From positions 1 to 34,015 of the forward strand of contig JAFYVE010000002.1 of the NCBI GenBank assembly GCA_017549285.1: a DNA stretch of 34,015 nucleotides, given 5' to 3'. Under the pieces are notes generated by a model. The model did not search any database. It was not told the DNA's origin and saw nothing but the letters and a program-made list of their open reading frames with translations. A program made the translations under genes and the position numbers. The stretch is from Clostridia bacterium (GTDB lineage Bacteria; Bacillota; Clostridia; Oscillospirales; Acutalibacteraceae). Of this stretch, positions 1,717 through 24,723 are shown in pieces. Positions within the stretch are counted from its first letter, which is position 1, and each line of letters starts with the position of its first letter.

Positions 1717-4700
1717 TCAGAATGTCTGAAGTTTTGCACTTACACGAAGAATGACACGTGCATCAGCTGCAGTAATCTTTTTATCTTTATTGACATCTGC
1801 AGCAGCAAGGTAATTATCGGCAAGTGACTGAAGTTTTGCACTTGATCTCAGAACAATTCTTGCATCGGCTGCGCTGATTTTACCGTCACCGTTCACATCA
1901 CCGATCATAAAATCAAGTTTATTGATTTTACGTGTTTCTTTTGTTCCGCATACTGAACAGATTCTTTCTTCTGTTCCTTCTGCATCAGCTGTAGGTGCTT
2001 TTACTGTTGTCCAGTTCGCAAACTTATGACCGGTAGCAGAAATCACTGTCTGTTTTTTTGTTACTGTACCGCAGACAGAACATTTTATACCATCCGATGT
2101 ACCTGATTGAGTACATGTTGCAGGTGTTCCTTTTACAGTCTGATGTATATGTCCCTTGGCGCTGAAATAATTATCAACAAAGGAATGTCCACAGACACAT
2201 AAATTGGTTGTATACCCTATTGCTGTACAGGTCGGAGACGTAACCACTTTTTTATAACTGTGAGTATGATCAGTACCAAGTGCAGGAATTACTTCCTGAG
2301 CTTTGAGGATTTCTCCGCACGATGAACATTTTTCACCTTCTGTAAGTCCGGTAGAAGTAGTTGAAGGCCGTTTTGCAGGAAGTTTTACCGGTGTATGTCC
2401 TGTCGGCTGAGTTATTACACCTGACAATGTAAGTTTTCCGCAATCAAGACAATATGTATCACCTGAAAATCCTTTTTCAGTACATGTTGCTTTAACAGCA
2501 TTTTTAACTTCTGTTTTTCCTGAATGCTTGGATGCACTTACTTTGCCATATTCAGCATTACAAACAAAACATACAGCTTTTCTGCTGCAGGTAGCACTAC
2601 CACCGATATGTTTGCTGCTTTCTTTTACAGCACCGCATTCTCTGCATTCTATCCAATGTTGCGTATCATCTGCTGTATACTCGGTTTTCCATACATGAGT
2701 AGTAGTTCTTGTATATCCGCATACGCCGCAGACTGTATCACAATTATTATCAAAATTATGAGATGAAACATCACCTTTATATCCGCAACTGCACTTATGC
2801 CAGTGTTCATCAGAATTTTTCAGCCATTCATTACCATAAGTATGAGGTATTTTTTCAAGCACTATATCACGCTTCGGAATTTCTGTTTTTCCGTTTTCAT
2901 CTCTGAAACATTTATCGCAGACATAACATATCCAGTGCTCAATATTTCCTTCTTTATTATGATCAGGCTCTGTTCTCGGACGTTTTGTGATTCGGTGCTG
3001 TGCATAATCACCATATTTTTCACCACATACAGAACAACTTGCTTTTTCTTTACATGTTGCTGTTCCTCCGACATGATCTGCAAGTTCAAGTTTTTCATCA
3101 GACCCTGAAACTACAGCACCGCAATCATCACAGGAAGTATAATCTGCATTACCGTGAACAATACATGTAGACGCAACTGCAGGGTAAAAGGTTGTATTAT
3201 TATGTGAGCATCCGACAACTACAAGACAGGTTGCTGTGAAATTACCATCAGATGTTTTTACAGTAATTGTAGCAGTGCCGTTTTTCAGAGCTGTGACTCT
3301 ACCGTTATTATCAACAGACACAACAGATTTATCGCTACTGCTCCATGTAACATTTTTATTTGTTGCGTTAACAGGATTTATAACTGCGATAAGAACATCA
3401 GTTTCTTCAGGATAAAGTGAAAGTCTGTTTCTGTTAAGAGAAACACCGTTTACAGGCACAGTTCTTGCAATAATTGAAACTGTAAATGTTGCTGCAGCGC
3501 CTTTATATGATACTGTCAGAGTTCTGTTGCCGGCGGTTCCGGAACTGAATCCTGTAACATTGAAGCCGGTTGTAACAATTTCTGTTTTACCGTTATTATA
3601 TGAAACATTAATCGCAAGACCGCTTGTATTAAGTGTGTCACCCACATAGTATGTTGTTTTTGCTGGCATTGTAGCTATTGAAATACCGGTAATTTCAACA
3701 GGAATAACCGTTACTTCAAAAGTTGTTGTTTTTCCTCCGTATGTTACAGTTATCAACTGTGTTCCTGCTTCACTGAGTGTTGACGGAGTGACAGTGAAAC
3801 CTTCTGACACAGAATATTGTGTGCCATCAGCCCCGATAACATTAAGTGTCAGACCACTTGTATCAAGTGTATCTCCCACATAGCAAGTCAGTTTTTCAGG
3901 ATTATTTTTAATTGTAATATCTGCAACCTCAAGAGGATTGACTTTTACAGTAAATGTTGTTGTATGTCCTTTATAACTTACAGCAACAACCTGCTCGCCT
4001 ACAGTATCAAATGTATTAATATTACAGGTAAAACCACTGTTTACTATTTGTGTTGTTGAATTAACATATGTAACTGTAAGAGTCAGGCCTCGTGTATCGA
4101 GTGCTTCACCAACGTTGTATATTGTTTTCAACGGATTTGTTTTAACAGAAATACCGGTAATTCCGACAGGATTGACAGTGACATCAAATGTTGTTGTTTT
4201 TCCTTTATAAGAAACTATAACCGTCTGAGTACCTGAATTTTCAAAAGTTGTTATATTGGTTGAGAAACCATTATTGACAGTTTGAGTAGTACCGTTATTG
4301 TATGTTACATTAAGAACAAGACCTTTTGTATCAAGTCTTTCACCCACATTATAGGTTATTTTTGAAGGCATCGTCTTTATCGTTACTGAGGCAACATCAA
4401 CAGCACTGACGGTAATATTGAAAGATGTTTGCTTCTGATTGTAAGTTACAAAAATACTCTTCGTACCTGACGTATTGAATGTTAACGGAGAACATGTAAA
4501 TCCGCTGTTCACAATCTGAGTAGTTCCATTATTATATGTAACAGTAAGAGAGAGCCCACTTGTATCAAGTGTTTCACCAACATAGTATGATGTCTTTAAC
4601 GGATTAGTATTGATAGCAATTGATGAAATAACAACCTCTTTAACAGACACACTGAAGGATGTCTGTTTGCCTTTATAAGACAAACTTATAGTCTGAGAAC

Positions 4701-7700
4701 CGACTGTATTGAAAGTTGTTGGTGAACAGGTAAAGCCGCTGCTTATCAGCTCTGTTTTGCCACTGTTATATGTTACAGCAAGAATAAGACCTGTTGTATC
4801 AAGTGTATCTCCTGAATAATAAGTTTTCTTTTCAGGCTGATATCTGATTGCTATACTGGTAACTTCAAGAGCTTTTACTGTTACATCAAAACTTGTTGTC
4901 TTTCCTTCATATGTAACTGTTATTTTACTTGTACCTGCAGTATCAAGAGTGTCAGGAGTACATATAAATCCTTCGCTGATTATTGCAGTTTTACCGTTAT
5001 CATATGTTGCTGTAAGAACAAGACCTGTTGTATCAAGATTATCGCCCGCATAATAATTTGTTTTTGCTGGAAGGCTCTTCATTTCAATTGAAACAACAGT
5101 GACAGGCTTGACAGTAACATCGAATGAAGTTTCTTTTTCTTCGTATATAACGGTTATCTTTTGCGTACCTACTACAGTAAGATTTCTGGGATTACAGGAA
5201 AAACCGGTTCTTGCGATATCTGTTGTACCATTATTATACGTAACATTAAGAGTCAGACCTGCAACATCAAGATCTTCACCTACAAAATAGACCAGTTTTG
5301 CAGGCTTTGTTCTAACAGAAATGTTAGAAATATCAACAGAATTTACTGTCACATCAAATGTAGTTGTCTTGTTTTTATATGTTACGGTTATGGTCTGCGA
5401 ACCTTCCGTATCAAGAGTTGCAGGAGTACATGTAAAGCCTCTGGTTATTGTTTCGGTTGTTCCGTTACTGTACGTTGCAGTAAGAGTAAGTCCGCTTGGA
5501 TCAAATGCATCACCAACAAAGTATGTTGTCTTTTTGGGATTACTGTTTACAGAAATACCTGTCAGTTCAACAGGAAGAACTGTTACATCAAATGTTTGTA
5601 TTTTTCCGATGTAAGATACATTAATTTTCTGAATACCGGCAGTATCAAGTTTTGTAGGCGAACAGATAAATCCTGCTGATAAGGTATTAGTCGTGTTGTT
5701 ATCATATGTTACATTCAGAATAAGACCTGTTGTATCAAGCGTATCACCGACATAATAAGTTGTTTTTACAGGTAGTGTTTTTATAGTGAAACTTACAGGA
5801 GAAATAGGTTTGACCGTAACATTGAATGTTGCAGTTTTTTCCTTATAAGTTACTGTAACAGTACAGGTGCCGCTACTGCTGAAATATGTAGGATTACACG
5901 AAAAACCACTTGTTATAGTCTGGGTTGTACCGTTATTATATGCAGCTGTAAGTGAAAGTCCGGTTGTATCAAGTCTGTCTCCCACAAAATAAGTTGTCTT
6001 TGATGGGTTTGTCTTTATTGTAATACCGGTCAGTTCTACAGGTATGGTTTTCCATATAGCATAAAGTGTTGCTGATTTATTCGGAGTATAACGGATTCCA
6101 GCCTGATAAGTCGCTGTTGTTGCCGTACTACTTGTTGACCAACCGAGAAGTGTGTAATTCGAACGTGTAGGTGTAGGCAAAACAAATGAATTTCCTGCCG
6201 CAGTAAGAAGAATTGTTTCTGAACCTGTTCCTCCGTTTACATTAAGTGTTGTTTTATAAAAAGTCACACTTGCAGGATTTGAAACATTTCCGTCAATATC
6301 CTTTGCAAATAAGTAATATGTGCCGGGAGAAGTAACGGCTTTGGATATATTTGCACCTTTTGTACTTGTTATACTTGTATAGTTACTGTCTGATGGTGAA
6401 CTGTTTGTTCCCCAGTAGTAAGCAATAACACCGACATTATCAGAAACAGACAAAGAAACCGTCTGACTTGAAGCATAATTATCCGAAGGAGTTATTGAAA
6501 CAGAAGGTTTTACAAGATCAGTCTTTTCCTTTTTTACGGTAAAAGCAGTATCACCGGTTTTTGTATTATAAGCTCTGATTTTAGCATAGTATTTTGTACC
6601 TGCATCCAGATCTATACTAAGCTTAAAATTGGTTCCTTCCAAACTGCCATCATCATCTTCATCCAACAAGGTTCCTGTAGAATTATAAAGATAAATCTGC
6701 ACATCGGTTGATCCTATTGATTCAAAAGTATACGTTCCTGAATAGACAGGAGTAAATTCATAATAGATTTCCTGATTTGCAAATTCAATTGTTGTATTAT
6801 ATAAAGTATTTACATCAATTGTTGAAGCCGCTGACCATACAGCATAAATTGTTGTATTTGCTGTCAGGTTAATAACATTACCCGGCTTATATGTCGGAGT
6901 AACTGAATTCTTGCTGGTATTCCAGCCCAGAAACCGATATTTAAAACGTGTGGGAACTGTACTGCTGATAGTATATGATGCATTGTTTGTCTGTGTTGCA
7001 GGAGCGCCACTTCCTCCGTTTGCATCATAATACAAGTCATATGAAATATACTGCCATACAGCATAGAGTGTTGTGTTTGAATTTGATGAAAATGTTCCGC
7101 CTGACTGATATGTTGCAGTTGTAGCTGTATTACTTGTTGCCCAACCGAGGAATGTGTAACCGTCTCTTGTCGGTCTGACAGTACTTAATTTTAAATCTGT
7201 ACCGTATTCTTTTGTCTGTGATGACGGTGCACCGGAACCACCGTTTGCATTATATGAAACTGTGTAAGTATTCTTTTTCCATACAGCATATAACATTGCC
7301 GGAGCATTTGATGTATAAGAACCTCCCGACTGATATGTTGCAGTTGTAGCAGTATTACTTGTTGACCAACCGAGGAAAGTATATCCTTCTCTTGTTGGCT
7401 TGGTTGTCGACAAAGTCAGAGTTTGCCCGTGTATTTTTATTTGTTGCACCGGAGCACCGCTGCCACCATTTGCATTGAATAATATACTATAACCTATAGG
7501 TTCCCATACTGCATACAAAGTGTTATTTGCATCAACAGCAAACGTATCCCCCGGCTCATAAGCAGGACTTGTTGCTGAACTTCTTAAAGCCCAACCAAGG
7601 AAAGTATAACCTTCTTTTGTAGGAATATTTGTACTGAGTGTAATGTTTATTCCATAATTCTTACTCTGTGCCGTGGGTGCTCCTGATCCGCCATTTGCAC

Positions 7701-9240
7701 TGTACGAAATTGTATATACAGGACCGAATTTAAAAGGAATTGATCCGGACATAGAAGAACTGTAGAATGTTACCGCGTAATAATAAGTTGTTCCGGCAGT
7801 AAGATTATATACAAGTTGAAAGTTTCTGTTTGTGCCTACATCATCATTGTTTGTTATTTCTGTTCCGCTTGAATTATAAAGATAAACCTTAGTATCATTT
7901 GAACCTGAAGAGTAAATAACATATTTTCCGCTTGTAGATGGCGTAAATTTATAAAAACATTTCTGTCCCTTGAAAGCAATATTGGCTGTTTCACTCATTG
8001 CGGGATAAAGTGTATATTGTTTCCACACAGCATAAAGCGTTGTATTTGAAGTAAGTGTTATTGAATCACCCGGTTTGTATGAAGCTGATGTTGCTGAACT
8101 GCTTTTTGACCAACCGAGGAATGTATAACCGAATTTTTCGGGAATATCAGATTTTATAGTGTATACTGAATCTCCTGAAGCTGTACCTGAACCGGAAGAA
8201 CCGCCATTTGTATTATATGTAAGAGTATATGTATTTTTTGACCAATGAGCATATAAAGTATGATTACCGTTTGTTGTGACAGTTGTTCCGCTTCCTATCT
8301 GCGAACCGCCTGACGATGATGTATACCAACCATTAAATGTATATCCGCTTCTTGTCGGAGTGGGAAGGGAGCCATATGTCGAAGTGTATGTAACGGATTT
8401 ACTTGAAGGAGAAACACTACCGCCGTTTGCATTGAATGTAACCGTATAACTGTTAGCTGATACGTTTACCGGAATCACTATCGTTTTTATGATTTCCTCA
8501 GTTGAAGTATATCTTTCATGTACAGAAATTCTGATATTGGTGTTACCTGCTTTTTTAGCAGTAATCGTAATAGGAATATCATTACCGTTAAACTGACCCC
8601 AGTTAGCATAAATAATATTATTATCATCAATATGATAACTTACGGAATACAATCCCGGATATGAACCACCGATATTAATATTTACATTACGGCTGACTGT
8701 CCCGTTCATATTCAAAGAAACAGGATTTTGAGATGGCGTAATGACAGGATTATATGAAACATCATATGTTATTGAAACAGAACCGGTCAAATCACCACGT
8801 ACTGTTGCTGTTGCTGTATATTCACCGCTCATTTCAGGAACAATTGAAATCCAGTTGGCATCACTGTCATCATAATCGGAACTGAAAACATAATTTCCGT
8901 TCGGATCGTATATTTCAATATAAACTGAATAATCACTGTTCTGATATGAATTCAATAATGCACCCGTATTGTTATCATATAAAGTATACCATACGTATAT
9001 ACGGTTCTGAGCATATCCGTACCGTGTGGCATAATTCTCTGCTGTTGTATGATTATATCCTTCTCCATAAGGTGATATAAATATACCTATTCTTGTATCT
9101 CTATTTGCTGCATCAGCATCAATTGAAGCATCAAGAACATCAGGAATATCAATTCCTGTAATATTACTCAACGGTGCGATAGCAAGAAATAAAACAATCA
9201 ACATTAATGAAATAATTGTTTTTTTAATTATGCTGTTCAT
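1717..9240 (-). CDS. Giant secreted multi-repeat protein with C-terminal type I dockerin
   Basis: Predicted extracellular protein of 2507 residues that probably binds surfaces or glycans and docks to a cohesin. N-terminal signal peptide (hydrophobic segment about 8-28, likely cleavage near residue 45). Residues about 265-410 hold two Listeria-Bacteroides repeats (NANGG...GYTFxGW...LYAVW). Two PPC-like beta domains (about 411-505 and 803-905) flank four more such repeats (about 507-802); an Ig-like segment and a seventh repeat follow to about 1065. Residues about 1067-1926 are eleven tandem Ig-like (Big_3) repeats of about 78 residues (Y.VGDxLDTxGL...YNNGTT...GFxCxP...TFDVTV), then one Big_2 domain to about 2010. 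A CxxC-rich zone follows to about 2443. Residues 2447-2507 are a dockerin with two Ca-binding loops ([24 protein letters not shown]). No catalytic domain is visible. The start is supported by AAGGA nine bases upstream. An adhesin or scaffold-attached binding protein is the most likely role. Confidence 0.9.
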
Positions 9241-11623: not shown

Positions 11624-13636
11624 GTGGCTGAAATTTTTCATAATATCGGTATACTTGCCCACGTTGACTCGGGCAAAACGACACTTACAGAACAACTTCT
11701 GTTCCTGACCGGTGCCATCCGTAATGCAGGTACCGTTGATTCGGGTACAACTGCAACAGACAGTCTTTCAGTTGAAAAACAGAGAGGAATTTCCGTACGT
11801 ACTGCAACTGCTTCAACCAAGTGGCAAGGCGTAAATATCAACATAATTGATACACCCGGTCACATTGACTTTGCAGGTGAAGTTGAACGTGCATTGGCTG
11901 CTCTTGATTATGCAGTTGTGATTGTTTCTGCAGTTGAGGGTGTACGTGCTCATACCGAAAACATTATAAAATCACTTGATAAAGCAGGGCTTCCGAGGAT
12001 TGTTTTTATAAACAAGGTTGACAGAACAGGTGCCGACGTTTCAAAGGTTATAAAAGAACTTGAAGAAATCTCTTCACAGAAATATATTATTCTTTCAGAT
12101 ATTGAAAATGAAGGAACTGAAAAATGTTTTGTAAGTATGCCTGATAAAAAAACTTTCTGTATGAATGCTACGGAAACACTTGCCGAAGTTAATGATGAAG
12201 CAGCTGAAATGTTCCTTAATGACACGCTACTTACAAAAGAAAAATCCGATGAAATTATATGTAAAGAAGTTTCGGACTGCAGACTGACTCCCGTAGTTTA
12301 CGGAAGCGCAAAATACGGTGTAGGAATAAAAGAACTTGCCGACATTCTCATAAAATATATGCCTGACTCATCACGCAGAGCAACTGACGTGCTTTGCGGA
12401 ATCATTTTCAAAATTGAACACGATAAATCATTGGGAAAGATTTCACACATCCGTCTTTTCGGCGGTGAAATTGCAAACAGAGATGAAATAGAGCTGTTTG
12501 CTCCCGAAAAAAATCAGATTATAAAGTCTGATGCTGTTGAAATTGAAGCTAAGAAAGCAATCACAGAAAAAGTGTCACAGATAAAGAAATTCTGTGGTGC
12601 AAAAAGCACCGATACAGGTATTATCCGAAGCGGTGATGTTGCCGCCGTATGCGGTCTTCCTTCTGCAAAAAACGGTTTTTATATCGGCACGCCGAAACAG
12701 CCAGAAGATGCAGACCTCGTAAATCCCTTTCTGAGAGTTAAAATAACTCTCGCTGATAATGATCCGCAGAAAATCCCTGCCCTTGCAGCAGCTATGAGTG
12801 AATTGTCAGACGAAGAGCCTTATATGGATGCAAAATGGGAGAACGGACAGAAAGAAATAACAATCAGCACAACAGGCAGAATCCAGCTTGAAGTGCTTTC
12901 AAATCTTTTAAAAGAGAGATATAACCTTTCCGCAGAGTTTTCTCCCCCGACGGTTATTTACAAAGAAACACCTTCAAAGAGAGCCTCAGGCGGTTCAAGA
13001 TACACTATGCCTAAGCCCTGCTGGGCTGTTGTTGATTTTGATATTGAGCCGATGCCCAGAGGTTACGGCATTTCATATCACGGCAGACTGCCCAACAATC
13101 AATGTTTTTATCGTTATCAGTCACATATCAGAACATCTTTCAACAGATGTCTTGAGCAGGGGCTTTACGGCTGGGAAGTGACAGACTTTAAATGCACACT
13201 CATCGGAGGTGAGCATCATACAATCCATACTCATCCCCTTGACTTCTTTGTTTGCACTCCGATGGCATTTATGAACACACTTGTTGAAACGGGTACAACA
13301 ATTCTTGAGCCTCTTCTTAAAATACGTGTTACGGCTCCCGAAGATTTCTCGGGAAAGATATTCTCAGAAATCGTTAAAATGGGCGGTGACTATGACACAC
13401 CTGTTATACGCTCGGGAATGATTACTTTAGAAGCCGTCGTACCTGTTGCAACTTCAATGAATTTCCCCGAAAGACTTGCAACTCTCACTTCGGGCAGAGC
13501 TGTACTTTCTCAGGTCTTCCACGGTTACCGTGAATGTAATGACGGCGAAGAACATATCAATCCGAAAAACGGTGTAAATCCCCTTGACCGTTCAAAATGG
13601 ATTCTTTATGCACGTGGTGCCTATAATGTTGAATAA
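11624..13636 (+). CDS. TetM/EF-G family translational GTPase (ribosomal-protection-like)
   Basis: A 670-residue paralogue of EF-G and the tetracycline ribosomal protection proteins, expected to act on the ribosome in the cytoplasm. GTPase motifs: G1 AHVDSGKTT (12-20), G2 region RGISVRTAT (54-62), G3 DTPGHID (76-82), G4 NKVD (130-133), G5 GSAK. Domains II, III, IV and V follow in TetM order (LCGIIFKIEHD; GRIQLEVL; QGLYGWEVTDFKC; LEPLLKIRVTAP; TSGRAVLSQVFHGY). The GTG start is placed by GGAGGT eight bases upstream and by the promoter. Family knowledge: TetM contacts the drug site with a loop containing SPVS. Here the ungapped equivalent (residues about 533-536) reads TIHT, so the key proline is absent. 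It may be a housekeeping or stress translation factor rather than a resistance determinant. Single-gene transcript. Confidence 0.88.
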   Translation: MAEIFHNIGILAHVDSGKTTLTEQLLFLTGAIRNAGTVDSGTTATDSLSVEKQRGISVRTATASTKWQGVNINIIDTPGHIDFAGEVERALAALDYAVVIVSAVEGVRAHTENIIKSLDKAGLPRIVFINKVDRTGADVSKVIKELEEISSQKYIILSDIENEGTEKCFVSMPDKKTFCMNATETLAEVNDEAAEMFLNDTLLTKEKSDEIICKEVSDCRLTPVVYGSAKYGVGIKELADILIKYMPDSSRRATDVLCGIIFKIEHDKSLGKISHIRLFGGEIANRDEIELFAPEKNQIIKSDAVEIEAKKAITEKVSQIKKFCGAKSTDTGIIRSGDVAAVCGLPSAKNGFYIGTPKQPEDADLVNPFLRVKITLADNDPQKIPALAAAMSELSDEEPYMDAKWENGQKEITISTTGRIQLEVLSNLLKERYNLSAEFSPPTVIYKETPSKRASGGSRYTMPKPCWAVVDFDIEPMPRGYGISYHGRLPNNQCFYRYQSHIRTSFNRCLEQGLYGWEVTDFKCTLIGGEHHTIHTHPLDFFVCTPMAFMNTLVETGTTILEPLLKIRVTAPEDFSGKIFSEIVKMGGDYDTPVIRSGMITLEAVVPVATSMNFPERLATLTSGRAVLSQVFHGYRECNDGEEHINPKNGVNPLDRSKWILYARGAYNVE

Positions 13637-14189: not shown

Positions 14190-14487
14190 TCAGTTCACCT
14201 TTGCAAGGCCCTTCTGACGGGCATATTCAGCAGCACCGAGAGCACCCATAAGCTGAGGGTCAGTTTTGAGCTCGACAACTTCGATTTTAAGAACTTTTTC
14301 AATAGCCTTTTTAAGACCGTCATTCTTTGCACAACCGCCTGTGAGTGTGATGCTGTTTGTAGCACCTGCTTTTTTAGCCATAACAAAGCATCTTTTAGCA
14401 ACAGCAAGCTGAATACCTGCTGCGATTTCATCCATAGGCTTACCTTCACCGACGAGTGAAATAACTTCACTTTCGGCAAAAACAGTT
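14190..14487 (-). pseudogene. 2-hydroxyacyl-CoA dehydratase activase (HgdC-like), C-terminal fragment
   Basis: The last roughly 100 residues of an ASKHA-fold ATPase of the BadF/HgdC activator family: TVFAESEVISLVGEG, then AAGIQLAVAKRCFVM, ITLTGGCAKNDGLKKAIEK and PQLMGALGAAEYARQKG. Full-length family members have about 250 residues. The N-terminal nucleotide-binding part and the cluster-ligating cysteines are absent; recognisable sequence begins at about 14487 and the frame has only a chance ATG at 14498 upstream of it. The break lies about 40 bases from the promoter of the plus-strand activase/glycyl-radical operon, so a deletion or insertion that set up that operon may have destroyed this gene. 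Confidence 0.8.
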
Positions 14488-14529
14488 TTTGTTAACAATT
14501 TTTATATAGTTAAAATATAGGGATATTGA

Positions 14530-14558: not shown

Positions 14559-14592
14559 TAAAAAAAATAATTAAATTTACGTGAGTTATAAA

Positions 14593-15486
14593 ATGGGAAT
14601 CATATTCAATATTCAGAAATTCTGCATACATGACGGTGACGGAATACGCACCTGTGTGTTTCTCAAAGGGTGTCCTCTGAGATGCTTATGGTGTCATAAT
14701 CCCGAAAGCCTTGAGAAAAAGCATAGTCTTTCCTTTAACAAACAGAAATGCTCATCCTGCGGAAGATGCCTTGAAATTTGCTCTGCACGTACAATTGATA
14801 ACGGTTTTCTTAATATTGACCGTAAAAAATGTACCCGTTGCGGTAAATGTGCAGAAGTCTGTTTCAACGATGCAAATGAAATCATAGGTAAGGAAATGAC
14901 TGCACAGGAAGTATTTGATGAAGTTTTAAAGGACAAGATGTTCTATGATACATCAGGCGGAGGAATTACCATTACGGGCGGTGAGCCGTCATTTCAGGCA
15001 GATTTCACATTAAAAATTCTCTCTCTTGCAAAAGAATCAGGAATTTCACTTGCCATTGAAACCTGCGGTATCGGGTCACGTGAATTCTATGAGAAAGCCG
15101 CAGACCTCGGCACAACATTTCTTTTTGACATAAAATGTATTGATTCCGAAAAGCACCGTAAACTTACGGGTGCAGATAATTTTCATATTATGTCAATTCT
15201 TGATTATCTTATGGAAAGAAATGCGGATATTATAATAAGACTGCCCTTGATTCCCGATTGTAACGACAGCGATGAGGATATTGCGATGCTGTCATCATTC
15301 CTTAACAAAAACAAAGGCCGCTACAGATATGCAGAGATTATGCCTTATCATACTCTCGGTACGGGAAAAGCAGATAAATTCGGTATAACTGTTCCCTATA
15401 ATCACGCAAATGCAAGCAGAACGGAAATTGACCGTTGGTGTAAATTATTCACTTCTCACGGAACAGATGTGAGAATATCAGAATAA
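14593..15486 (+). CDS. Glycyl-radical enzyme activating protein (radical SAM, PflA family)
   Basis: Uses a [4Fe-4S] cluster and S-adenosylmethionine to place the glycyl radical on its partner enzyme, encoded 11 bases downstream. Counting from ATG 14593 (297 residues): radical SAM motif CPLRCLWC with C27, C31, C34; then two ferredoxin-type cluster motifs CSSCGRCLEIC (C53/56/59/63) and CTRCGKCAEVC (C80/83/86/90), as in activases of dehydratase-type rather than classical PFL enzymes; the SAM-binding TGGEP motif; and a C-terminal half with IRLPLIPDCND and EIMPYHTLG. The longer frame opens at GTG 14581, but that GTGAG is better read as the weak Shine-Dalgarno for ATG 14593, since nothing resembling a binding site precedes it. 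Confidence 0.93.
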   Translation: MGIIFNIQKFCIHDGDGIRTCVFLKGCPLRCLWCHNPESLEKKHSLSFNKQKCSSCGRCLEICSARTIDNGFLNIDRKKCTRCGKCAEVCFNDANEIIGKEMTAQEVFDEVLKDKMFYDTSGGGITITGGEPSFQADFTLKILSLAKESGISLAIETCGIGSREFYEKAADLGTTFLFDIKCIDSEKHRKLTGADNFHIMSILDYLMERNADIIIRLPLIPDCNDSDEDIAMLSSFLNKNKGRYRYAEIMPYHTLGTGKADKFGITVPYNHANASRTEIDRWCKLFTSHGTDVRISE

Positions 15487-15497
15487 AGAGGTTTTAT

Positions 15498-17663
15498 ATG
15501 ACAGATTTAATTAAAATTGATCCATTTTTATGTGGTTACTTTTCAGATGAAACAATTGAACACGGAGAGCGAGTCGGTCTTGCTCTTCTTTATGCGGCGA
15601 AAAATCTTGAAATCAAGTTCTCACGTCAGTTACTCCCCGATACAGCTTTTTCAACTCAATACGGCAGTTCGGGATATGCACCTTCCGAGGGTTTATGGTT
15701 CAATGATGAAAATATTTTAAAGATTGCCGAAGATTATCCCGAACATAAGGAAACTCTTAACAGATATATTCAGGGAATAAACATATTCAGAAGCAAGTCA
15801 AGAATGCTCAATTGCGAAACCACCGATGCACTCAACAATTCAGGTGCTGAGTGGGGTGGCGGTTGGGGCGGCCATTCAAACCCCGATTACGGAAGGATAA
15901 TAAATCACGGCACGGATTACATTCGTGAAATAATCTCCGCAAATCGTGATAAACATCCCGATGAAGATTGGTTTTACCGTTCCTGCTCTTATACACTTGA
16001 TGCAATAGATATATTCGGTGAAAGATACCGTAAGACGGCTCTTGAACGTGCAGAAAAATGCGAAAACCCTGATGACAATGCATTTTATCTGCGTATGGCA
16101 GAAGCATTTGAAACAGTACCGAAAAAGCCGGCTTATGACTTTATGTCAGCGATGTGCTCCTTTATGCTTATATTTGCTCTTGACGGAAGCGATTCACCCG
16201 GTCGTTTTGACCAGTATATGTATCCTGCATATTCAAAAACTGAAAACAAAGAAGAAATAACCGACCTTCTTGACAGACTGTGGGATTATTTCCGTGACCA
16301 CCGTTCCTGGAATCTGTGTATTTCGGGAAGTGATGAGAATTGGGTTGACGAATCAAACGAGCTTACATACGATATACTCGAAATGGTAAGAAAAAAAGGC
16401 TATAACACACCTAACCTTACCTGCCGTGTACATAAAAATACTTCTGCTAAGCTATGGAATGCAATTGCTGATACACTTGCAGTCGGAACGGGACTCCCCT
16501 CCCTTTACAATGACGATGTTGTATGCAAAGCACTTGAAAAAATCGGCATTCCCCCCGAAGACAGCCACGATTACTGTATGAACGGCTGTAATCAGATAGA
16601 TATTCTCGGCAAAAGCCATATGGGGCTTGAAGACGGCGAGGTTGTCTTCACAAAATGCCTTGAATTTGCACTTCACAACGGAACGGATGCTATGACAGGC
16701 GAAAAAATTTCAATCGAAACAGGTGACCCGAGAACTTTTGAAATCTACGAACATTTTGAACGTGCTTTTATTGAACAGCTCGAGTTTGTGACATACAACG
16801 CCTGCAGCAGTGCCAACAGATGGCAGCATATGCGTGGTTTATTCCAGCCTCATCCCTTACGTTCCTGCCTGATTGAGGGCTGTCTTGAAAAGGGACGTGA
16901 CTACAGAAACGGCGGTCCGCTTTACAACCACGGACAAATCTTAGCCGAGGGTATTGCTGACACGGGTGACAGCCTTTATACAGTTAAAAAGCTTGTTTAT
17001 GATGAGAAGAAGTACACAATGGCAGAGCTTATTGAAGCTCTTGATGAAGATTTTGTAGGATATGAAAAGCTTCATCATGACTTTAAGAATTGTGAAAAAT
17101 TCGGTAATGACATTGAAGAAGTTGACAATATAACGGCTATGGCTCTCAACCGATTCTTTACTGTTCTCAAACATAATAACACCTACAGAGGCGGAATATT
17201 CACGGGCGGTTGCAGTACATTCAACCGAGCCGCAAACTACGGAAAACAGACTGCCGCACTTCCTAACGGTAAGCGTAAAGGCGAACCTCTTCTTGCTGAT
17301 TCAATTGCCGCAACTCCCGGTCGTGACAGAAACGGACCTACTGCACAGATAAAATCTGTTCTCAGATACAATCACACTGATGCCTGCAGCGGTTTTGTTT
17401 TTCAGAACAAATTTGAAAAAAGGCTTTTTAACAGCGAAAAAGGTAAAGCTTCATTTATTGCACTTGCAAAAGCATATTTTTCACAAGGCGGTCAGCAATA
17501 TACTGTTACGGTTGTATCGCCCGAAGACCTGCTTGATGCAAAGATTCATCCTGAAAACCACAAAAACCTTATTGTGCGTGTCGGCGGATACAGTGATTAT
17601 TTTGTAAACATCAGTGAAGAGCTGCAGGATAACGTAATTGAACGTACTTTTGCAGATATATAA
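15498..17663 (+). CDS. Glycyl radical enzyme of unassigned subfamily (PFL-like)
   Basis: A 721-residue glycyl radical enzyme, somewhat shorter than usual for the dehydratase group. The glycyl radical motif VRVGGYSDYF is 24 residues from the C-terminus (radical Gly697). The active-site loop reads YCMNGCNQ: the thiyl cysteine is Cys364 (with C360 nearby). In glycerol, diol, choline and hydroxyproline enzymes the loop is GCVE and the glutamate acts as acid/base; here that position is Gln366. An N-terminal loop GGHSNPDYG (His126, Asp130), preceded by a Trp/Gly-rich stretch, matches the conserved GHxxPDY region. The sequence is neither a PFL (no CC pair) nor a GCVE dehydratase. AGAGG precedes the ATG by six bases; it is co-transcribed with its activase and nothing else, so the substrate cannot be inferred from neighbours. 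Confidence 0.9.
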   Translation: MTDLIKIDPFLCGYFSDETIEHGERVGLALLYAAKNLEIKFSRQLLPDTAFSTQYGSSGYAPSEGLWFNDENILKIAEDYPEHKETLNRYIQGINIFRSKSRMLNCETTDALNNSGAEWGGGWGGHSNPDYGRIINHGTDYIREIISANRDKHPDEDWFYRSCSYTLDAIDIFGERYRKTALERAEKCENPDDNAFYLRMAEAFETVPKKPAYDFMSAMCSFMLIFALDGSDSPGRFDQYMYPAYSKTENKEEITDLLDRLWDYFRDHRSWNLCISGSDENWVDESNELTYDILEMVRKKGYNTPNLTCRVHKNTSAKLWNAIADTLAVGTGLPSLYNDDVVCKALEKIGIPPEDSHDYCMNGCNQIDILGKSHMGLEDGEVVFTKCLEFALHNGTDAMTGEKISIETGDPRTFEIYEHFERAFIEQLEFVTYNACSSANRWQHMRGLFQPHPLRSCLIEGCLEKGRDYRNGGPLYNHGQILAEGIADTGDSLYTVKKLVYDEKKYTMAELIEALDEDFVGYEKLHHDFKNCEKFGNDIEEVDNITAMALNRFFTVLKHNNTYRGGIFTGGCSTFNRAANYGKQTAALPNGKRKGEPLLADSIAATPGRDRNGPTAQIKSVLRYNHTDACSGFVFQNKFEKRLFNSEKGKASFIALAKAYFSQGGQQYTVTVVSPEDLLDAKIHPENHKNLIVRVGGYSDYFVNISEELQDNVIERTFADI

Positions 17664-21248: not shown

Positions 21249-23522
21249 TTATGTATATATCACAACAGGTCCATATAAACCGCCTGATACAGAATCTTTT
21301 GCAAAATCTTTTTCTCCTTCAAAATACGGAGATAATTCTTTTGTGCTCCATTTATCAAAATAGTCGGTATGTATATACCAGTTTGCCGATGTGTTGGTTA
21401 CAACTACTTTCAGCTTATTCTTTTTATCAAGCAAGCCTTCCGGTATTTTCAGACTGTACGGAGGCATCAATGATGTTCCCAGGAAACGGTCATTCAGATA
21501 TACAGAAGCCGCAAAATGCACATCGCCGAGGTCAATTTTGCCTTCTTTACCTGCGTTTTCATCGGGTAGCGTGAATGTTGTTTCATAAACACAGCTACCT
21601 GAGTATGCGCTACCGATCAAATAAGCCCAGTCACCTAAATTGACAGAAACTGCCTTGTCTGAATGATTAATATTTTCAAAACCATTTTCATTGCAGATGA
21701 GTTCATTTTCTTTACTGAACATAAAATCATTTTTAATTTCAATTTCAGTTTTAAATTCTTTTCTGATTCCAGTATTCAGATTTTCGTCTGTCAACAATAT
21801 AACAGCTGTTTCACCTACGGTAAGAAATAGTGGAAGATTTCTGTTTTTGTTTTCCAAACGTTGCAATTCACCATTTTCCGGATCAAGCAGATAACCTTCT
21901 GATGAAGGCAGATGAACACAGTAATCACGGTTTTCATCCGATTCATTGAAAAAAATGAAAATATCTGCATTCTCGGCTTTTCTGTGCATTGCCCGCAACC
22001 CCTTACCGTTAATCTGAACTACAGGACTGAGTTCAGAAGGCTCGGACAAAACTCTTCCTCCGCAACCGACAAAACGGTTTAACGCCTTTTGTGTATCAAC
22101 AGGAATATAAGCATCTTCCGGAATGATAATAGATTTGTATTTTGCTCTGCCGATTTGCATACAGCCGTTATCGGTTATTTCCGCAAGCTGTATGACATCA
22201 TCGTCAACAATATCAAAATCCACCGTCATATCTTCAAGCTTTCTGCCGAGAGAATCAAATTCTTCTGCAACAGTTTTGGCATTGAGCCTTCCCTGAAAAT
22301 CGGAAACGGGATAATAAAGTGCTGTTTCGCAGATGCGTTCTCCGAGAGAAGATATATAAGATAATCTTTCAACATAACGATTAAACTGAGCGAGATGACG
22401 GTAATACGGTTGATTTTCCGTAAAAATCGGCAGTTCCTGCGCGAGCAGCTGACCTTTACGACCGAGCGGAAAATTAAACGGATTGAATATATTAATACCT
22501 CTTACCGCCTGATAACCGACGGTATATCTCATCATATCAAAAGTCAGTCCGGGACCTGCAACGCCAAAAATCTCACTCATAGCAAACTTTGTGCCGTTGT
22601 GTGCTGCGGCAGATGACGCGTATCTCGGATAAAATCCGTTGTAAGCGTTCATATCATCTTTGCTTTTCACTTTAATGTCAGGGTAAATCTGACGCCATAT
22701 AACATCTATGCCCGGAATATCAAAACACCTGAGGGCACGCATCAGATTAAAGTTTCCTCCACCGTTCATACAGCCTGAAGGACTGTGGTCTTTATCAAGA
22801 TGTCCCGTAAAAGCAAAACCGTTTTCATTTGCCCATTTTTTGCATGGCATAAGATAATTTTCACAGAACATCCGGCTGCACAAATCATACCAACGATAAA
22901 GAATATGTACATTTTCTTCTGTCGGTTTTTCTTTGTTTTCAATAAGAGAAAGATATGGCAATATTGATTCGCCGTACATTTCTTCATATTTATCAGCTAA
23001 CTCTTTATTGAACGGATTTAAAGGAGCTTTCGGTTCATCAGTAAATACGGCAGTAAAATTCCCGGTTGCTGCCGCATATTTTTCGTGAGTAATTTCAATA
23101 AAATACTGAGTTGCTTCTCTGTTGAGCAGGTCGGGATATCCGCCCCCTGATTTTTTGTAAGTATATTCAGGATGATCTTTAACAACTTGTCCGCACGCAC
23201 TTCCTGACGGCCAGCCGCCCTCATCGTAAATCCAGCAATTCATTCCGAGAGAAGTTCCTTTATCAATTGCATAAGCACAAAGTTCAAAATATTCCGCAGA
23301 AAGATATTCGGGACTGAGTTTTGTGGGCATACTGTCGGGTCTGAATTCTTTCGGTTCAGGAAGAATATAAAACGCACGTATCCCGAGCCTCTGCATTTCA
23401 GCAAGTTGTTCATCAATAATTTCACGGGTGCAGAAATCATTCCATACCCAGATATATACGGGAGCGTTGGAAACATCAGGGGATACGAATCTGCACAACT
23501 CAAATTTATCATTATTTTTCAT
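21249..23522 (-). CDS. GH106-type glycoside hydrolase (putative alpha-L-rhamnosidase)
   Basis: A 757-residue protein without signal peptide, so probably cytoplasmic, expected to remove a terminal sugar such as L-rhamnose from imported oligosaccharides. The N-terminal barrel has the family's opening pattern (VYIWVWNDF, EQLAEMQRLGIRAFYI) and WIYDEGGWPSGSA, then FTDEP and GHLDKDHSP; about residues 625-757 form a galactose-binding-like beta sandwich (IDLGDVHFAASVYLNDRFLG...NKLKVVVTNT). It is short for GH106 (commonly 900 or more residues). The start is ATG 23522, because AAAGGTG lies about seven bases upstream; the longer frame from 23558 would overlap the preceding gene. It follows the MFS transporter by 19 bases, which suggests uptake and hydrolysis of the same sugar. 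Exact substrate is inference. Confidence 0.78.
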   Translation of the reverse strand: MKNNDKFELCRFVSPDVSNAPVYIWVWNDFCTREIIDEQLAEMQRLGIRAFYILPEPKEFRPDSMPTKLSPEYLSAEYFELCAYAIDKGTSLGMNCWIYDEGGWPSGSACGQVVKDHPEYTYKKSGGGYPDLLNREATQYFIEITHEKYAAATGNFTAVFTDEPKAPLNPFNKELADKYEEMYGESILPYLSLIENKEKPTEENVHILYRWYDLCSRMFCENYLMPCKKWANENGFAFTGHLDKDHSPSGCMNGGGNFNLMRALRCFDIPGIDVIWRQIYPDIKVKSKDDMNAYNGFYPRYASSAAAHNGTKFAMSEIFGVAGPGLTFDMMRYTVGYQAVRGINIFNPFNFPLGRKGQLLAQELPIFTENQPYYRHLAQFNRYVERLSYISSLGERICETALYYPVSDFQGRLNAKTVAEEFDSLGRKLEDMTVDFDIVDDDVIQLAEITDNGCMQIGRAKYKSIIIPEDAYIPVDTQKALNRFVGCGGRVLSEPSELSPVVQINGKGLRAMHRKAENADIFIFFNESDENRDYCVHLPSSEGYLLDPENGELQRLENKNRNLPLFLTVGETAVILLTDENLNTGIRKEFKTEIEIKNDFMFSKENELICNENGFENINHSDKAVSVNLGDWAYLIGSAYSGSCVYETTFTLPDENAGKEGKIDLGDVHFAASVYLNDRFLGTSLMPPYSLKIPEGLLDKKNKLKVVVTNTSANWYIHTDYFDKWSTKELSPYFEGEKDFAKDSVSGGLYGPVVIYT

Positions 23523-23541
23523 TGTTAACACCTTTGTAATT

Positions 23542-24723
23542 TCAGAAATCTGCATCATATCTGCCCTGCTTTTTCAGGTATCTGATAAAGCACTTAAGAG
23601 CAATAACCATCGTCACATATAGTACGGCGAGCAGAACAGGATATATTTTTATTCCGAAAAGTCTGCTTATAAGGCTTACCATTGGAGGCGCTAACATAAC
23701 ACCAATGTAAGCAAAGGCAATCTGTGATCCCATAATGGATTGCGATACATTTTTGCCGAAATTGTGAGGTGTCAGATGTATCATATTAGGATAAATCGAG
23801 CCGTTACCCAGCCCGATAAGAAACAAACCGATAACTGAAACCGCTCCGTGCAACGGAAGAAGCATCATTACAACAGCAGGAGCAAGAATGACTGTGCCTA
23901 TGCCGATACGCCTCCATGTGCTGATTTTATCTGCGAGCAAACCCGAAACAAAACGCCCGATTGACATACCGACATAATATATTGTCAGGGCAAGTGCCCC
24001 ATACTTTGCATCAAAGCCTTTTTCTTCTACAAGATATGTGCTTCCCCATACTCCACAGGCATATTCAATGGCATTTGTTACAAGCATAATGACCCATACA
24101 AGTCGCACATCTGCCATTTTTGCCATCTGCAAAATAGTAAGGGTCAGGCCTTTCTCTTCTTCCGTTTCTTTCGCAGATAATGTTTTTTTCCATAAAGGAA
24201 CGGAAGCAATAAGCAGGATTGTAATTGCCAACTGCACATAAAAAACATAACGGTATCCGCCACGCCACCCGATGTTACTTAAAGCCTGCGACATAAGATA
24301 AGGGCTGAGTGATACACCCACACCGTAAAAACAATGAAGAAAATTCATATGACTTGCTTTAAAGTGAAGAGCCACATAATTATTAAGTCCCGAATCTATT
24401 GCACCTGCACCGAGACCGAGAACAACAGCAATCGGAATCATAAACCAAAAGGAAGGAACAACAGAGAAGCAGAGCAAAGACAATGCAGTCATAGCCGTAC
24501 TTAAAGCCGTAACTCCGGCAGTTCCGAATCTGTTGAGAATTTTTGCACTGAACATACTTGATAAAACAGTACAACCTGAAATAAGAAATGTGATAATACT
24601 GACCGCTTCAAGCGGAATATTCAGTTCTGTATGTATTGCGGGCCATGCAGAGCCGATGAGTGAATCGGGCACTCCGAGACCTATAAACGCAATATAAATC
24701 ACAATGAGAAGGATTGTTGCCAT
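23542..24723 (-). CDS. MFS sugar transporter
   Basis: A 12-helix major facilitator permease of 393 residues from ATG 24723 (MATILLIVIYIAFIGLGVPD). GVPDSLIGSAWPAIH after helix 1 is the signature of a Clostridia MFS group related to FucP-like sugar transporters; the central cytoplasmic loop is the charged SAKETEEEKG. It is expected in the cytoplasmic membrane, probably as a proton or sodium symporter of a mono- or oligosaccharide. The frame opens at GTG 24765, but AGAGGA eight bases before ATG 24723 fixes the start. First gene of a two-gene operon with the GH106 hydrolase; the leader contains a 9-bp inverted repeat that could regulate it. Confidence 0.85.
   Translation of the reverse strand: MATILLIVIYIAFIGLGVPDSLIGSAWPAIHTELNIPLEAVSIITFLISGCTVLSSMFSAKILNRFGTAGVTALSTAMTALSLLCFSVVPSFWFMIPIAVVLGLGAGAIDSGLNNYVALHFKASHMNFLHCFYGVGVSLSPYLMSQALSNIGWRGGYRYVFYVQLAITILLIASVPLWKKTLSAKETEEEKGLTLTILQMAKMADVRLVWVIMLVTNAIEYACGVWGSTYLVEEKGFDAKYGALALTIYYVGMSIGRFVSGLLADKISTWRRIGIGTVILAPAVVMMLLPLHGAVSVIGLFLIGLGNGSIYPNMIHLTPHNFGKNVSQSIMGSQIAFAYIGVMLAPPMVSLISRLFGIKIYPVLLAVLYVTMVIALKCFIRYLKKQGRYDADF

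Follow-up and report, generated by a model that had tools for sequence, protein, structure and literature searches.

Glycyl radical enzymes (GREs) that act as eliminases carry a Cys-X-Glu (CXE) motif, described as conserved among them (PMC8473560, PMC7077986, as far as the available text of both papers goes). Its glutamate, two residues after the thiyl cysteine, is the residue by which these enzymes are recognised and explained, and its replacement by glutamine is a standard inactive mutant in the portions of the literature available: IslA E470Q lost all activity (PMC8473560), and HypD E436Q was inactive (PMC7077986). Sugar-like substrates are also known in this superfamily, YbiW and PflD acting on 1,5-anhydrohexitol-6-phosphates (PDB titles; available part of PMC12441222). 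Here, a GRE with a natural glutamine at the glutamate position is described, together with its activase, from a Clostridia bacterium of the family Acutalibacteraceae (assembly GCA_017549285.1, contig JAFYVE010000002.1). The window, that is, the whole stretch of DNA analysed, comprises positions 1 to 34,015 of this contig (34,015 nucleotides); the source genome has a size of 2.3 Mb in 56 contigs and is 88% complete.

The Cys-Asn-Gln enzyme and its activase

The activase gene and the GRE gene lie in this order on the forward strand with 11 bases between them. The GRE gene (ATG at 15498, stop at 17663) encodes 721 amino acids and was assigned using Pfam, NCBIfam, alignment and fold. The protein scored 360.2 bits with the PFL-like domain PF02901 (cut-off 24.3), which was matched only from model position 157 onward, and 79.5 bits with the Gly_radical domain PF01228 (cut-off 22.2). 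The codons read RVGGY at 17577..17591 (RVGGYS to 17594), including the radical residue Gly697, and Cys364-Asn365-Gln366 (CNQ) at 16587..16595. With this glycyl motif, both domains, a thiyl Cys in the loop, and a GRE fold, the protein belongs to the GRE superfamily. The loop reads GCNQ, without the Cys-Cys pair of pyruvate formate-lyase, and a Trp/Gly-rich segment (AEWGGGWGGHSNPDYG) is present. The activase gene (ATG, 14593..15486) encodes a radical S-adenosylmethionine (SAM) protein of 297 amino acids, or 301 from a GTG at 14581, with the Pfam domains Radical_SAM, Fer4, and Fer4_10, the CxxxCxxC SAM-cluster motif GCPLRCLWC, and two ferredoxin-like CxxCxxCxxxC motifs, KCSSCGRCLEIC and KCTRCGKCAEVC. 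It scored 322.6 bits with TIGR02494 (two-cluster GRE activases; cut-off 174.35), and its best equivalog was the HypD activase model T4HPD_activ_SAM (322.8 bits, below the cut-off of 425). The initial annotation, made from the letters alone, had reported intact radical motifs, an activase with two extra clusters, the missing Cys-Cys pair, and the Trp/Gly-rich segment, and the codons, motifs, and models agree with it on each.

Gln366 falls on the CXE glutamate, with no gap after the Cys, in the single-sequence search, in the family profile, and in multiple alignments with reference GREs, including the CutC chain 5fav, glycerol dehydratase (GD), and HypD; no alignment examined puts a Glu in its place. 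The best single PDB match of the enzyme was the same chain 5fav (290.5 bits), titled as the E491Q mutant of choline trimethylamine-lyase; this CutC mutant is reportedly inactive. Judged by the CXE motif of the GRE eliminases (GD, 1,2-propanediol dehydratase (PD), CutC, HypD, and IslA), the CNQ sequence is outside the described eliminase class, though it may work like a dehydratase.

Among the other family rows covering the loop, 112 of 113 read GCNQ; the sole exception, L068 (1696-3081), reads GCNR in a gene interrupted by a contig end. The glycyl motif of the 113 relatives covering it is RVGGY in 90, RVGGF in 19, and RIGGY in 4. These loop counts, and the locus counts given below, exclude the window protein itself where relatives are counted, six duplicate loci (L003-L007 and L009), and rows with less than 40% identity to the window GRE (L001, L002, L019, the GCNW row of L072, and one piece of L018). 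For comparison, 40 other GREs were hand-picked from matches in genomes of the phylum (38 from one search and 2 from another); Glu occupies Cys+2 in 33 of them, and the others have Ser (3, one of them a pyruvate formate-lyase), Tyr (2), Val (1), or Gly (1); none has Gln. In an overlapping set of 64 rows outside the CNQ clade and its Cys-Gln-Glu (CQE) relatives, Glu was found in 51, and 62 are accounted for by the five commonest letters, which do not include Gln; the last two rows apparently have Gly (L181) and Asp (L153). Glu at Cys+2 is a rule with exceptions, and Gln was met in the CNQ clade alone. The earlier statement that characterised GREs keep Glu at this position stands for the eliminases HypD and IslA, within the available text on them, but does not extend to the superfamily as a whole.

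Several GREs of other types with unusual loops or partners were recorded. Those of L103, L110, and L165 read GCVVP and likewise lack the CXE glutamate; L103 and L110 are placed near CutC in the tree. Identity of the GCVV proteins with the C-N cleaving HplG was suspected and not shown, L103 being nearer to CutC chains than to 7vua. L072 (2966-5110) and L151 (4528-6741) represent another GRE subfamily with an aromatic residue at Cys+2 (GCNW and GCHW); both genes lie behind an activase and two adjacent genes, at least one of which in each locus encodes a Gfo/Idh protein (Pfam). In two genomes, a GRE adjoins an activase and a gene with the motif FSGQSNMQ, presumably SGNH-like (L143, 1731-5458; L147, 1117-5577); the loop of L143 reads GCIENF, and the protein of L147 shares 49% identity with L121, which is of the same type.

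Placement, distribution, and tandem arrays

Alignment A1 comprised 54 rows of the family, after removal of rows more than 75% identical to a kept row, shorter than 690 amino acids, or scoring below 500 bits (L068 among them). IQ-TREE was run on 53 rows, including 28 of A1, and placed 28 of 28 CNQ rows in one clade at 100/100, apart from the CutC, HypD, YbiW, PflD, and PD-like rows. The FastTree phylogeny of 140 rows, with all 54 rows of A1, united 55 CNQ rows at a local support of 1.0 (L149, with the loop GCNQVDI, is a CNQ row). The sister of the CNQ clade in IQ-TREE (98/90) is a clade with an LGCQE loop (4 of 4 rows), in which the Glu is kept; in FastTree, all 21 CQE rows grouped at 1.0 and joined the CNQ clade at 0.961. 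The next FastTree branch, the GC(N/H)W pair (0.891), is long and untrustworthy. Rows of IslA, HpsG, IAD, HPAD, and BSS were not knowingly included in the trees; IAD, HPAD, and HpsG/HpfG were compared by model score, and IslA and BSS only by the profile against PDB chains.

Nine full-length NCBIfam GRE models were matched, and the window GRE fell short of every cut-off by more than 300 bits: by 307 for the subfamily model TIGR01774 and by more than 700 for each of the eight equivalogs. The scores were 327.3 bits for CutC (TIGR04394; cut-off 1050), 305.7 for HypD (NF043068; 1100), 280.1 and 271.4 for HpsG and HpfG (NF048011 and NF048009; 1000), 270 for PRK09983 (1109), 243.7 and 152.4 for IAD and HPAD (NF033718 and NF033715; 1100 and 1150), and 82.3 for pyruvate formate-lyase (TIGR01255; 994.2). 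Against PDB chains, the family profile scored highest with 1r8w (472.6 bits), 5i2a (468.5), 9rco (459.7), and HypD (438.5), and lower with 7e7l (347), MasD (321), BSS (268), and HPAD (209). On these trees and scores, the CNQ clade is a separate, uncharacterised GRE subfamily outside every equivalog family tested. The initial annotation had suggested an uncharacterised subfamily and named a separate clade with a conserved Cys-Asn-Gln as what would support it; the CQE sister clade, the tandem arrays, and the invariant Asp232 described below lay beyond its view. A literature search, with subscription papers mostly outside its reach, returned no paper on the CNQ subfamily or on tandem GRE arrays.

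Relatives at E <= 1e-100 were found in 13 of 394 genomes of the same order (source genome included), representing 9 of 169 genera; in 398 genomes from across the phylum, no relative at E <= 1e-150 was detected except in the source genome. The order-level search, which did not use patterns, gave 15 CNQ-type places (source genome included), all with GCNQ, and a sixteenth (L019) that is a CQE protein. A scan of genome contigs, from which the best 80 of 211 matches were retained, yielded 79 loci, mainly from metagenome-assembled genomes (MAGs) of Clostridia or Oscillospiraceae. Many of the loci among these best 80 are titled as originating from goats, sheep, cattle, buffalo, yak, or deer, and some belong to Victivallales and Lentisphaeria and one to Christensenella. 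The scan set is biased, as peptide patterns were used and one of them (MNGCNQID) contains the motif itself.

The residues invariant in all 54 rows of A1 are His126, Asp232, Asp238, Tyr337, Asn338, Asp339, Asn362, Gly363, Cys364, Asn365, Gln366, Asp368, Ser373, His374, Met375, Leu377, Ser573, and Gly697; Arg269, Trp271, Ser233, and Glu378 are found in 53. Compared with a relative of 83% identity, the window GRE showed nonsynonymous and synonymous divergences (dN and dS) of 0.106 and 1.39, and the ratio of about 0.08, with dS near saturation, indicates that the gene is under purifying selection. One relative, L086 (7974-10154) in a Victivallales MAG, has the CNQ gene in two open pieces, with the break just after the Cys loop.

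Of the 89 distinct loci, 17 have their CNQ genes arranged head to tail, and successive stop-to-stop frames are separated by -39 to 184 bases; the figure of 17 is obtained from 18 multi-piece loci minus L086 (one split gene), and several of the tandem loci are truncated by contig ends. Six full copies make up the L088 array in its genome record (contig 42 of G786) and five the L096 array, each array with one terminal activase; L046 and L053 contain three copies behind a single activase, and L049 contains three with no activase within the retrieved stretch. Copies 3, 4, 5, and 6 of L088 pair with copies 1, 2, 3/4, and 5 of L096 at 79-82% identity, and full copies within either of these two arrays share 56-79%. 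Copies 1 and 2 of L088 have no one-to-one partner in L096, copy 1 being a contig-end piece in L088 with up to 85% identity to copy 2. In L044, L047, L050, and L067, partners by position are 80-97% identical, and the two copies of one array 70-71%. Because the identity of partners across genomes exceeds that within an array, the copies in some arrays split before the genomes did and have kept their order, which would be expected of copies that do different jobs; other arrays lack this pattern.

The CQE clade also forms arrays, with four copies in L138 (3837-13248), three in L139 (3548-10517), and two with an activase in L140 (5532-11150). Proteins scoring 430-512 bits occur in 7 of 14 genomes that had been selected because they carry CNQ genes (G787-G792 and G798), all seven with a GCQE loop. 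The CQE type was found in 4 of 295 genomes, all four of which carry CNQ genes, versus CNQ in 13 of 394; these counts are uncorrected for kinship.

Fold, pocket, and proposed reaction

AlphaFold2, run on the 54 rows of A1, predicted a GRE fold over residues 3-721 with a pLDDT of 94.7 and a pTM of 0.93. The first nine Foldseek rows were PD and GD chains, the best being PD 5i2g (E 3.7e-52, TMq 0.89). VIA-align scores were 47.4 for the A. fulgidus GRE, 45.4 for IseG, 44.6 for HpsG, 44.5 for arylacetate decarboxylase, 42.5 for PD, 42.3 for HypD, 42.2 for BSS and CutC, and 42.0 for GD, all with a root-mean-square deviation of 2.9-3.6 A over 690-700 residues. According to the model, the window GRE has the full GRE fold, with no one subfamily nearest by VIA-align.

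From the catalytic His, Ser, Glu, and Asp set of GD and PD, the alignment retains His126 (15873..15875; on the GHxxxxY histidine of diol dehydratases), Ser233, and an acid at position 378 (Glu378, 16629..16631; at the active-site Asp), and has Gln366 instead of the Glu; the roles of His126 and Glu378 are proposed by analogy. We take His126, Ser233, and Glu378 to correspond to GD His164, Ser282, and Asp447, of which the His and Asp presumably stand at the leaving hydroxyl. The candidate for a relocated base is Asp232 (16191..16193), present in 55 of 55 CNQ and 21 of 21 CQE rows; the position is mostly hydrophobic in the 64 other GREs. Its presence in the CQE clade, which still has the Glu, is consistent with an acid gained before the Glu was lost. 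The family profile places Asp232 on HypD Asp278 (numbering after subtraction of a 20-residue tag), an acid of the beta-1 strand that is essential, D278N being inactive (available part of PMC7077986); since an indel adjoins it, the equivalence is only tentative. Residues that distinguish CNQ proteins from the CQE clade and most other GREs are Arg269, Trp271, Trp282 (47 of 55), Tyr337, Asn362, Asn365, His374, and Met375.

The preferred reading, given a probability of about 0.4, is a two-gene module of an activase and a catalytically competent CNQ GRE that would eliminate from a polyhydroxy substrate with a relocated base, the paralogues of relatives serving related substrates. The sequences establish the motifs for the radical, the GRE fold, a separate clade, a pocket of invariant residues, purifying selection, and tandem diversification in relatives; the elimination reaction, the identity of the base, and the substrate class we infer. 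The activase would put the glycyl radical on Gly697, which would hand it to Cys364; Cys364 would then abstract a hydrogen atom from a substrate that is polar and polyhydroxylated (derived from a sugar or polyol) and bound near the conserved Trp119 and Trp271. A leaving group, most likely hydroxide, may depart with the help of His126 and Glu378, which occupy the leaving-group positions of diol and glycerol dehydratases. Another acid, most likely Asp232, would accept the proton in place of the CXE glutamate, and Gln366 would merely form hydrogen bonds. Tandem paralogues in relatives may carry out the same reaction on different stereoisomers or related substrates with one shared activase. A different proton chemistry or substrate, already raised in the initial annotation, is plausible.

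This reading draws on the intact radical machinery with its adjacent activase, the top profile and Foldseek matches to GD and PD, the retained His126, Ser233, and Glu378, the invariant Asp232, the essential acid of HypD, the GREs known for sugar-like substrates, and the pairing of L088 with L096 copies. Carbohydrate genes near some distant members, and the Gfo/Idh neighbours noted below, also speak for it: no more than three genes away from such members are genes for GH28, GH4, a glucuronyl esterase, 3-keto-disaccharide hydrolases, and a xylose-isomerase-like TIM-barrel protein, as well as for BNR proteins, DUF4838 proteins, and two periplasmic binding proteins. These surroundings would suit a polysaccharide-degrading niche just as well as a pathway. 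The arrays do not uniformly bear out different jobs for their copies: between L046 and L053, pairing is clear for copy 1 only (69 versus 60-61%), and between L046 and L049 there is none.

Among the alternatives, an elimination that needs no base survives best and is judged unlikely. Here the Glu would have no successor, and Gln366 would orient a substrate already ionised, bearing a carbonyl, or having a leaving group that can depart with no deprotonated neighbour (cleavage of C-N, C-S, or ether C-O). Such a role would suit a Gln invariant in 54 of 54 rows, as though selected for hydrogen bonding, and other natural GRE lineages do without an acid at Cys+2 (GCVV, near CutC; GCVS; GCVY; GCLG); for the HypD Glu itself, contact with the leaving hydroxyl has been proposed in place of the deprotonation of a second hydroxyl that applies to other eliminases (PMC7077986, available part). 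However, in the available text the E-to-Q change kills both HypD and IslA, the His/acid pair of diol dehydratases is retained in the CNQ enzyme, and neither of the acids Asp232 and Asp368 varies in the 54 rows.

Rather unlikely as well is an enzyme other than an eliminase, such as a C-C bond enzyme (decarboxylase, radical addition, or keto-acid lyase) or a radical epimerase or isomerase on an eliminase-like scaffold; the family profile ranks dehydratases (472 bits) far above 7e7l, MasD, BSS, and HPAD. It is improbable that the enzyme diverged within a characterised subfamily (HypD, CutC, diol dehydratase, or sulfonate lyase) and that its Glu-to-Gln change is neutral: the HypD activase model is indeed the best equivalog match of the activase, and with GD and PD the GRE profile attains 470 bits, but the eight equivalog cut-offs were each missed by more than 700 bits, the clade is separate at 100/100, and many positions near the Cys loop and in the beta-3 region are unlike those of other GREs. 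A catalytically dead or decaying GRE retained for another reason is very improbable, as the remnant gene on the opposite strand beside the activase, the split relative L086, and the inactivation of two enzymes by E-to-Q in the available literature are set against a dN/dS of about 0.08, the invariance of the Cys, Gly, His, and acids in 54 of 54 rows, and the presence of an activase no more than 400 bases away in 36 of 89 loci.

A wider proposal is possible, if doubtful: the CNQ clade may be a GRE class that does without the Cys-X-Glu base, by way of a relocated carboxylate or with no base at all, and acts on a substrate beyond those known for GREs. In Clostridia of the gut, largely those associated with ruminants, it and the CQE clade would have been amplified into sets of as many as six tandem paralogues sharing one activase, and such sets may serve as a radical toolkit, diversified by substrate, for polyols, sugars, or sugar acids that abound in the gut. 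A whole clade with Gln fixed asks what the glutamate does in GREs and how the proton is handled without it. The tandem arrays of relatives also suggest that an anaerobic conversion not yet charted takes place in the gut, that of ruminants included, and offer enzymologists natural paralogues to compare. The family consists of oxygen-sensitive radical enzymes of uncultured gut bacteria, often from ruminants, and may perform radical chemistry still to be assigned.

Gene neighbourhoods and comparison with described enzymes

As the initial annotation had it, the operon of the window consists of activase and enzyme only and gives no clue to the substrate; the surroundings of relatives were equally uninformative. 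An activase was found within 400 bases in the 36 loci mentioned above; in a further 6 it lay elsewhere in the retrieved stretch, and the other 47 showed none (uncorrected for contig ends). No conserved partner besides the activase was detected in gene clusters over all loci or among the Pfam families of neighbours: 44 immediate same-strand neighbours (loci L043-L098) represented 56 Pfam families, none present in more than 3 of the 44 (25 commonest inspected). The commonest cluster besides GRE and activase was an FAD-dependent oxidoreductase (PF12831; 7 loci); in L021, L024, and L033, three close relatives of the window locus, its gene directly precedes that of the activase. Gfo/Idh proteins accounted for 2 of the 44 neighbours, one of which (L072) flanks another GRE type. 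Assignment of a substrate from gene context was rejected, no common carbohydrate partner being found among relatives.

Back to back with the activase, a 102-amino-acid remnant of a BadF/BadG/BcrA/BcrD ATPase, corresponding to the final third of the Pfam model, is encoded on the reverse strand (14190-14498); it was rejected as a pathway clue, being only a fragment on the opposite strand. A few kb downstream of the GRE, also on the reverse strand, a GH106-like (alpha-L-rhamnosidase) gene adjoins a major facilitator superfamily transporter gene (21252-24723). Upstream, the window encodes a 2507-amino-acid surface protein with many Big_3 and Listeria-Bacteroides repeats and a dockerin domain (1720-9240, reverse strand) and a 670-amino-acid EF-G-like GTPase (11624-13636, forward strand), which may be TetM-like, of ribosome-protection build. 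Two further GREs, a pyruvate formate-lyase and a GCQE protein, are encoded on another contig of the source genome, each adjoining a smaller activase. The GRE at L002 of the source genome (contig C27, 1453-3831) has a GCQEP Cys loop and IMRIHGTF at the place where RVxGY is expected.

Among described enzymes, YbiW and PflD differ from the CNQ protein in having CXE in both reference rows and in belonging to another clade. CutC provides the top single-sequence PDB matches, but has Glu where the CNQ protein has a natural Gln and, in the alignment, an Asp (presumably Asp216) where it has His126. HypD is linked to the window through its activase model; it has Glu436 at the Gln position, its three rows fall in another clade, and its model score is far below the cut-off. 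GD and PD (1r8w, 5i2a, and 9rco) are the best profile matches, at 26-30% identity, and share the near full-length fold, the GHxxxxY His, the Ser before PGRFDQ, the acid at Cys+14, and the glycyl motif. Compared with them, the window GRE has Gln for the CXE Glu, a shorter N-terminal part, Asp232, and a Trp/Arg signature in the beta-3 region, and the stretch before PGRFDQ, which holds Asp229 and Asp232, is about six residues shorter in CNQ proteins. The unassigned CQE clade (L019, L113-L115, L138-L142, and L144-L146) has Asp229 with Asp232, the GKS motif, and EDG after the Cys loop in common with the CNQ clade; its members differ in the Glu at Cys+2 (21 of 21; loop GCQEIEIP) and in a length of about 750-810 amino acids, and share 33-36% identity with CNQ proteins.

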